A stretch of 33,625 nt of DNA from Mycobacteriales bacterium. Its GTDB lineage: Bacteria; Actinomycetota; Actinomycetes; JAFAQI01. Below are positions 3,235 through 26,542 of this stretch, in pieces (the first letter of the stretch is position 1; each line of letters begins with the position of its first letter). Location of the stretch: assembly GCA_035504215.1 (NCBI GenBank), contig DATJSI010000087.1, positions 1-33,625 on the forward strand. The letters run 5' to 3'. The position numbers and the translations under genes are program-made. The notes below the pieces were generated by a model. That model did not search any database. It was not told the origin of the DNA and worked only from the letters and a program-made list of their open reading frames with translations.

Positions 3235-3353
3235 CCCCACGCATGGCCCATCGGTGGGGCTATCACCCCCGCATGGCCCATCGGTGGGGCTATCACCCCA
3301 CGCATGGGCCATCGGTGGGGCTGTGACCCCACGCATGGGCCATGCGAGGGGCG
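3235..3353. repeat. Palindromic tandem array A (4 units)
   Basis: Four copies of the 9-bp near-palindrome ATGGSCCAT start at 3243, 3273, 3304 and 3335 (periods 30, 31, 31 bp). Copies 1-3 are followed by CGGTGGGGCT and flanked by GCCCCAC-type arms that pair with GTGGGGC, so each unit can fold into a hairpin with the palindrome at its tip. The fourth copy is degenerate in its 3' arm and runs up to the promoter of the RDD gene. The array sits between the GlnR box of glnA and the RDD gene. The same repeat recurs at 4820-5160 and 9641-9735. Confidence 0.85.
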
Positions 3354-4819: not shown

Positions 4820-5160
4820 GCCCCACCGATGGGCCATGCGTGGGGCTATCGGCCCACCCATGGGCCATTGGTGCAGGCGTCAGCGACAGTTATGGGCCAT
4901 GCGCGTCGCTGCGGGTGGCACGGGTGGGCCATGCGTGTCGCGGCGGCCCGCACCGGTGGGCCATGCGTGTTGCCCTGGCGACAGCTATGGGCCATGCGTG
5001 TTGCCCTGGCGACAGCCGTGGGCCATGCGTGTCGCGGCGGGCTGCACCGGTGGGCCATGCGTGTTGCCCTGGCGACAGCTATGGGCCATGCGTGTCGCGG
5101 CGGGCTGCACCTATGGGCCATGCGTGTCGCGGCGGGCTGTACCTATGGGCCATGCGCGTC
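4820..5160. repeat. Palindromic tandem array B (11 units)
   Basis: Eleven copies of RTGGGCCAT start at 4829, 4860, 4892, 4924, 4956, 4987, 5018, 5050, 5081, 5113 and 5145. The period is 31 or 32 bp throughout, and most copies continue GCGTG. Two linker types alternate irregularly: one with GTTGCCCTGGCGACAGC, one with GTCGCGGCGGGCTGCACC. In several units the sequences flanking the palindrome are complementary (CAGCGAC/GTCGCTG around 4892, GGCGACA/TGTTGCC around 4987). The array fills most of the 489-bp gap between the small conserved gene (ends 5180) and the DUF4191 gene (starts 4690). The rest of that gap contains a 16-bp direct repeat at 4778 and 4798 and no gene. The long frames crossing the array encode only repeat-derived peptides. 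Confidence 0.9.
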
Positions 5161-9640: not shown

Positions 9641-9735
9641 GTAGCCCCCCCGATGGCCCATCGGTGGGGCTACGGCCCCACTAATGGCCCATCGGTGTCG
9701 GTATAGCCCCACCTATGGGCCATGCGTGTCCGACA
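9641..9735. repeat. Palindromic tandem array C (3 units), possible terminator
   Basis: ATGGSCCAT cores start at 9653, 9684 and 9715, a 31-bp period. The first unit folds strongly: GTAGCCCC (9641-9648) pairs with GGGGCTAC (9666-9673), and inside it CCGATGG pairs with CCATCGG (9650-9664). The array starts 29 bp after the kinase stop and lies between convergent genes (the kinase and the TIGR01777 gene), where it could end transcription from both sides. It belongs to the same family as arrays A and B. Confidence 0.85.
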
Positions 9736-26249: not shown

Positions 26250-26382
26250 GGGGTCGGCTCCGAGCCACCTCCGGCACGCGAACGCCCTCGCGGCGCAGCC
26301 GATCGGCTACGACGAGAGGGCGGTTGACGGGCGGTGTCGCCCGGGCTCCGCCCGCGTTCCTCGACGGTTGTCATGGAGCCCT

Positions 26383-26508
26383 CGCCGAACGCGGGTATCC
26401 CGGCTCGCCTCAGGATCGAGGCCTACGGTTGCGGGTCAGCGCCGGACTTCGACCGGCTTCCCCCGCCCACGGCGATTGCCTCCCGATCGGATCACACCCG
26501 TGTCGGCG
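26383..26508 (-). promoter_or_regulatory. Cobalamin riboswitch
   Basis: A minus-strand leader 134 bp before the export/ECF operon's SD hairpin. The core is unmistakable for the B12-element family: GGGGGAA, then the stem-loop GCCGGTCGAAGTCCGGC (26457-26441), then the B12-box region GCTGACCCGCAACCGTA (26440-26424), a GGCCTC/GAGGC helix, and GAGCCGGGATACC near the 3' end. The outer P1 helix closes well: CGCCGACACGGGT (26508-26496) pairs with ACCCGCGTTCGGCG (26396-26383) with small interruptions. Control of the downstream genes by cobalamin is established for the family. The effector for this copy is inferred from the core sequence. The ligand subclass is not determined. Confidence 0.9.
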
Positions 26509-26542
26509 GCGTCAACGCGGGGGTGGCGTGCGCGGATGCCAC

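Follow-up and report, generated by a model that had tools for sequence, protein, structure and literature searches.

The REP elements, with their REPIN and BIME forms, are short, high-copy intergenic palindromes that occur as inverted doublets and in tandem arrays behind genes; their partner gene, a RAYT, is bracketed by cognate repeats, the repeat families follow the partner, and the system is defined by its Y1 enzyme and by the GTRG head (PMC3686654). So far, REP elements are known chiefly with this one enzyme family. In the type IV toxin-antitoxin system AbiE, the AbiEi proteins are DNA-binding autoregulators, and the binding sites of AbiEi and Rv2827c consist of several 23-bp inverted repeats in tandem (PMC7319586). 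Two more distant points of comparison are the DUF559/Vsr-like endonucleases (PDB 3hrl), which have a conserved E, D, E, H pattern, and the MITEs, which are small elements with terminal inverted repeats and gene-less copies.

The arrays that we describe here have in common with REP/RAYT the dispersed palindromes, the doublets and arrays behind genes, the bracketed partner gene and the repeat families that follow it. The partner differs, since it is predicted to be an AbiEi-like winged helix fused to a DUF559/Vsr-like PD-(D/E)XK nuclease domain, whereas a RAYT is a Y1 HUH enzyme, and the arrays have no GTRG head, a dyad site with a fixed phasing of about 30-32 bp, and a hairpin that is dispensable (in family 1 of the genome G002). 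The AbiEi-like N-terminal half is shared with AbiE, but the partner has an extra nuclease domain, an AbiEii partner is absent from the single-gene cassettes examined (contig C50 of G000 and C47 of G004, with a single gene between the arrays), and the repeats flank the gene on either side and are dispersed in the genome. The cassettes are not a standard type IV toxin-antitoxin pair, because they hold one gene. The C-terminal domain shares the residue pattern of the DUF559/Vsr-like endonucleases, but here it is fused to a DNA-binding domain and tied to a repeat family, and MITEs differ from the arrays in that we saw no target-site duplication by eye, and found an internal phased site array and no classical transposase parent. 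We give a probability of about two in three to the arrays being REP-like elements with a non-RAYT partner nuclease, and the best reading of the units in the window is that they belong to an actinobacterial family of REP-like repeats, as non-coding copies scattered through the genome.

The window, which is the whole stretch of DNA that was analysed, is the 33,625-nt contig DATJSI010000087.1 of assembly GCA_035504215.1, and its source genome is labelled G000. With one mismatch allowed it contains 35 cores, against 3.4 expected, and the features are as follows.

3238 to 3348, no strand: array A, four cores at 3243 (-), 3273 (-), 3304 (+) and 3335 (+), spacing 30/31/31 bp, between a divergent pair of genes, glutamine synthetase (-) and RDD-like (+).
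4824 to 5158, no strand: array B, the stretch under study, 11 cores, all +, at 4829, 4860, 4892, 4924, 4956, 4987, 5018, 5050, 5081, 5113 and 5145, spacing 31 or 32 bp, with the 5' end of a DUF4191 gene on one side and the 3' end of a small reverse-strand ORF (stop 21 nt away) on the other.
4824 to 4842, + strand: example of a unit, the 19-bp near-palindromic site CACCG-ATGGGCCAT-GCGTG.
4838 to 4859, no strand: example of a spacer, 22 nt, with halves that pair imperfectly (GTGGGGC/GGCCCAC).
9648 to 9728, no strand: array C, three cores at 9653 (-), 9684 (-) and 9715 (+), spacing 31/31 bp, between convergent protein-kinase (+) and epimerase (-) genes.

The 3.47-Mb genome contains 133 exact copies of the core ATGGGCCAT, counted on both strands, compared with 9 of the reversed pattern, and the cores are grouped in about 40 arrays of 2-14 sites. 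The constant unit is a DNA site of about 19 bp with dyad symmetry, CACSS-ATGGSCCAT-SSGTG, with a 9-bp core, and it repeats every 31-32 bp (31 in 77 and 32 in 31 of the 117 spacers), a phasing of about 31.5 bp that corresponds to three helical turns and places the sites on the same face of the helix. Most terminal cores are oriented outward (65/76), and outward from them ATGGGCCAT-GCGTG is conserved, ends 5 nt past the core and has reached background by +9. A CRISPR array was considered and rejected, as the spacers are related and common to different arrays and the core stands in both orientations.

The assemblies used are drafts and metagenome assemblies, and among them the array cores vary by genome, being ATGGSCCAT, ATGTSACAT or hybrids. 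G002, from another genus, has two families; the first has the same core as G000 with a period of 31 in 43 of 49 cases, and the second has ATGTSACAT at a spacing of 30 bp, while in G008 the core ATGTSACAT is repeated at exactly 32 bp in 56/56. The core swap between genera had zero control matches, and at one further locus G000 and G008 have arrays in the same intergenic gap, built on the respective core of each genome. Array stretches of G002 match loci of the MAG 'Frankiaceae bacterium CP_BM_RX_R9_1' with 100% identity. When ATGNSNCAT pairs at exactly 31 bp were counted in 394 genomes of the class, a count that misses 30-bp forms such as those in Rhodococcus, numbers above 1 were found only in the family of the window. 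Across all bacteria, many of the ATGGSCCAT pairs among the matches listed were ordinary hairpins or coding repeats, and multi-copy families among the same matches came from Rhodococcus, Labedaea, a Streptosporangiales MAG and others; R. triatomae and R. spelaei have paired ATGGSCCAT elements with similar CCCGA/TCGGG arms. The multi-copy paired-core palindromes have a spacing of 30 bp both in Labedaea and similar records (CCCTGAATGGCCCATTC...; L088, L104, L130, L146, L155, L170) and in the Streptosporangiales MAG (TGAATGGCCCATTCA...; L086, L139, L147). On contig C51 of G002 (L212:2300-2880), three arrays repeat as a higher-order unit of about 150 bp with the flanks ...TCGATCGCCGAGCCGCGCGAAGCGGGCGC, and this flank is also present at L207 and L208, so that family 1 may belong to a larger element.

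The genes that are sandwiched singly by two arrays in G000 (C50 and C95) and G004 (C47) are mutual homologues according to a flank comparison. A homologue on C75 of G002 is likewise sandwiched, by the second array family of that genome, and those on C14 and C72 of G001 are bracketed by arrays with G001 cores, so that together with Rhodococcus ruber the array-bracketed gene is known in five genomes (G000, G004, G001, G002 and R. ruber). A profile search found homologues in 195 of the 394 class genomes, and none of the other 197 predicted genes in the array loci of G000 is bracketed. Many of the other homologues have different palindromic repeats around them, for instance CCAGCGGTGTGCCACTGCTGG at a 31-bp period in G007, CCCCAGCAACGCAGCGTTGCTGG on C22 of G004, and GCCGTCAGCGCGAC...GTCGCGCTGACGGC in G006. 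Elaborate flanking repeats of their own were also seen at the distant homologues of G244 (L383), G182 (L384), G030 (L352) and G039 (L362), in G182 with a 62-bp tandem unit, TGTCACCAGGGCAACAACAAGGAGGCTTACTGCACCC. In G008, 77 cores of the ATGTSACAT type were present in the arrays fetched and none of its three homologues has such flanks, and for family 1 of G002 the bracketed gene was not found; in both cases the gene may have been lost, may lie in an assembly gap or may act in trans. The copy on C95 is truncated and ends in an array, and the copy on C75 of G002 is frameshifted, both of which fit the decay of a selfish gene. In the viral contigs there was no relative of the partner protein. The bracketing repeats could partly be operators for self-regulation.

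The C50 protein of G000 by itself has no Pfam or NCBIfam match. Among 37 homologues, AbiEi_4 (PF13338) was found in 15, DUF559 in nine and REase_MTES_1575 in seven, and the AbiEi profiles of PADLOC match all of them. The best PDB match of the protein profile is the endonuclease-like 3hrl, and it is weak (E 0.0099). E196, D229, E240 and H247 are invariant in the 37 sequences, and they follow the residue pattern known from PD-(D/E)XK/Vsr-like sites, in what we regard as a putative nuclease domain. In the maximum-likelihood tree, the homologues with ATG-N-S-N-CAT cores form two well-supported clades and a distant R. ruber copy, which takes 3 changes on the tree against 7.5 in shuffles, and 0 of 500 shuffles were as low. 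The protein clades match the repeat subtypes, as one clade has AAGC..GCTT arms (G008C26, G001C72, G002C75) and the other CACG..CGTG arms (G004C47, G001C14, G000C50, C95).

Solo copies of the bracketing repeat are present in the same genome in five lineages beyond that of the window (G006, G039, G182, G001 and R. ruber). When the flanks were compared by BLAST with stretches from six genomes, there were same-genome matches in G006, G039, G182 and G001 and sporadic ones elsewhere. The flanking hairpin of G006 has three further copies in about 130 kb of other sequence from that genome, and its flank 12-mer had no match among the remaining genomes examined; the flank repeat on C22 of G004 is not dispersed within the 158 kb examined. 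In Rhodococcus ruber MSA14, the homologue WP_029540190.1, annotated as 'hypothetical protein' and with an acyl-CoA carboxylase and a hypothetical protein as annotated neighbours, is placed between CCGAATGTCACAT-21 nt-ATGTGACATTCGG elements. There are three solo copies of this element within the 74-kb record, all at convergent annotated gene pairs and closely 3' of a stop codon, one of them overlapping the gene end, and the element is absent from all other of 72,556 plasmid records. The record itself, the 'plasmid' pmega_4 (NZ_CP145323.1; L407/L408), has serS, pks13, fadD32 and arabinosyltransferase genes and so resembles a piece of the chromosome that was deposited under the name of a plasmid.

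The association of the repeats with the partner gene can be read directly from the genomes, and we infer binding and mobilisation. The winged-helix domain would bind the palindromes, with several molecules aligned on one face of the helix, and the nuclease domain would nick or cut at or near them. The cassette of repeat, gene and repeat would thereby be moved or copied, and gene-less repeats could be served in trans; the copying would most simply take place by cut-and-repair or gene conversion, and the arrays may be lengthened by later tandem duplication. Insertions would persist mainly between convergent genes, because no promoter is hit there and the harm is least, and the hairpins would be a dispensable by-product of paired inverted sites. 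The wider hypothesis, that a fused winged-helix/PD-(D/E)XK nuclease mobilises palindromic elements, both its own cassette and gene-less arrays, without a known transposase fold and with enzyme lineages and palindromes co-diverging, would make this a mobile genetic system of a new class; it is more tentative, and we put it a little short of an even chance. If the repeats of Actinobacteria are indeed maintained by a nuclease unrelated to the RAYTs, partnerships between repeats and enzymes have arisen more than once. This would give many proteins now labelled hypothetical or AbiEi/DUF559 a function that can be tested, and it would mean that many of the palindromes between genes in GC-rich genomes, which are generally interpreted as terminators, originated in another way. 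R. ruber and its relatives can be cultivated and would serve for such tests. In the literature, with subscription papers mostly outside the scope of the search, nothing relevant was found on DUF559 with palindromic or transposable repeats, on AbiEi with DUF559 or on RAYT with Actinobacteria, and among the matches listed there was nothing relevant on the 9-mer core.

The placement of the arrays bears on the question of whether they are instead operator or nucleoid-protein sites kept by selection, bound by an AbiEi-like or other protein without any mobility. With gene positions from a simple codon-based gene caller, most arrays lie at most about 35 nt from a stop codon, and convergent gaps hold 13/36 arrays in G000, 10/13 in family 1 of G002 and 12/19 in G008, against 7/73, 0/16 and 2/35 for the array-free gaps. 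Such a fixed position at the 3' ends of genes would suit a binding site, as would dyads phased at about 31.5 bp, at least two to an array, a core that has changed together throughout the genome, and the autoregulation by AbiEi proteins (PMC7319586). Against such binding sites, divergent, promoter-containing gaps are avoided by the arrays (3/36 in G000, array A being one of them). The ATGGSCCAT core is also absent from the orthologous DUF4191-lipA interval, the site of array B, in 11 relatives, and the conserved nuclease residues, the solo dispersal and the truncated and frameshifted gene copies look selfish. We consider sites without mobility unlikely, although they are the strongest rival to the REP-like reading. 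By eye, no target-site duplication was seen in the listed flanks at the array ends, and no clean pair of pre- and post-insertion sites at base level was obtained among relatives that are about 75-85% identical.

The sequence-only reading of array B had taken its units for folded hairpins, on the ground that the arms flanking the palindromes differ between units and stay complementary. The arm pairs are all present, GCCCCAC/GTGGGGC at 4829, CAGCGAC/GTCGCTG at 4892, GGCGACA/TGTTGCC at 4987, GCGACA/TGTCGC at 5018 and 5081, and GTAGCCCC/GGGGCTAC in array C. In a set of 39 arrays with 156 cores and 117 spacers, taken from the fetched array-bearing stretches of G000, we compared two axes, the arms around each core and the two halves of each inter-core spacer, with shuffles in which the arms were re-dealt among all units or within arrays only. 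Around the cores, the arms of these 156 genomic units do not pair in excess of the re-dealt arms (z 1.3 for all arrays, -1.6 within arrays), and the proposed covariation was thus not borne out. On the spacer axis pairing exceeds the shuffles, in a repeat with other settings as well; the z values, 5.6 for all arrays and 2.1 within arrays, ignore relatedness and are upper bounds. In a background-corrected test of column covariation, the 6th base from each core takes first place among 231 pairs on the spacer axis, and the 6th-base positions come third to fourth among 190 on the core axis; the remaining column pairs are nearly invariant or low-ranked, and in essence a single pair of columns carries the spacer signal. 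The arms are of two types, TGGGGC and TGTCGC, each extending along entire arrays, and the impression that the arms covary around the core arises because each arm in a tandem array has two possible mates. What remains of the folded units is a palindromic family that is foldable in G000, with the pairing placed on the wrong axis and by the wrong argument.

It follows from the arrays of G002 that structure in RNA or cruciform DNA, to which the retained pairing had been taken to point, is not the common constraint. Compared with shuffles, the mean folding z of the arrays is -4.2 in G000, -4.9 in G008 and -6.9 in family 2 of G002, and +0.28 in the 15 arrays of family 1, of which none falls below -2 and where the spacers are unpaired (2.0 of 8 positions), yet core, period and position 3' of genes are retained. 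Positions 4 and 6 of the core differ palindromically between genomes, from G..C in ATGGSCCAT to T..A in ATGTSACAT. In a hairpin centred on the core these positions belong to the 3-nt loop, and the hairpin can therefore not select for the swap. The swap is explained by a dimeric protein that reads DNA, but by neither a hairpin nor a cruciform centred on the core; pairing from core to core could also account for it, but the arrays of G002 speak against this. The same arrays weigh against transcription terminators or mRNA 3'-end hairpins, whose tandem copies would work in both directions between convergent genes. The strong folding in G000, G008 and family 2 of G002 and the convergent position 3' of genes would agree with terminators, but a stable hairpin is not found in every copy, the arrays have no Rfam match, and the shared 9-bp core, the 31-bp phasing and the bracketed gene would be left unexplained. 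We regard terminators as improbable.

It is still less probable that the bracketing is a coincidence, with frequent arrays and with AbiEi-type genes as islands that were acquired recently and landed in repeat-rich places. The gene scores low in the codon-based gene caller, as acquired genes may, but exact repeats of at least 14 nt from flank to flank were found at 20 of 42 homologues, against 0 of 100 control genes, which came from the family of the window and are only partly matched in composition to the distant homologues, and 0 of 235 shifted windows, which were taken at the loci of the homologues. The enrichment is significant (Fisher p about 5e-13, with homologues that are not all mutually independent), and about half of the distant homologues are without exact 14-nt flank repeats. 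The homologues moreover have repeats of their own that are dispersed in their own genome, and the protein clade tracks the repeat subtype.

Both defining features of REP/RAYT were looked for here and neither was found, as Y1_Tnp (PF01797) has no match in 13 genomes of the order, with a control search positive in 5/14, and the GT[AG]G head is not constant before the palindromes of G006 and R. ruber or in the TGTCGC arm type of G000. A RAYT partner is rejected for the order, unless a RAYT is hidden in the few percent of sequence that each assembly lacks. That the arrays are RAYT-type REP/BIME elements of the known family is thus very unlikely, even if dispersed intergenic palindromes in arrays behind genes and a bracketed gene are what such elements would show, since the partner comes from an unrelated family.

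Some other features of the genome and the window can be mentioned. Arrays of 14 and 10 cores stand at contig ends of G000, at the start of C37 (L055:1-450) and the end of C146 (L075:2864-3169), and their spacers are closely similar, so that the two contigs may join there and arrays break the assembly. On C14 of G000 (L050:3389-5023), two arrays surround about 1.5 kb in which the longest ORF looks like the gene of a secreted protein unrelated to the nuclease family. The sole Rfam match in the window is a cobalamin riboswitch (RF00174) at 26373-26514 on the - strand, with 44.3 bits.
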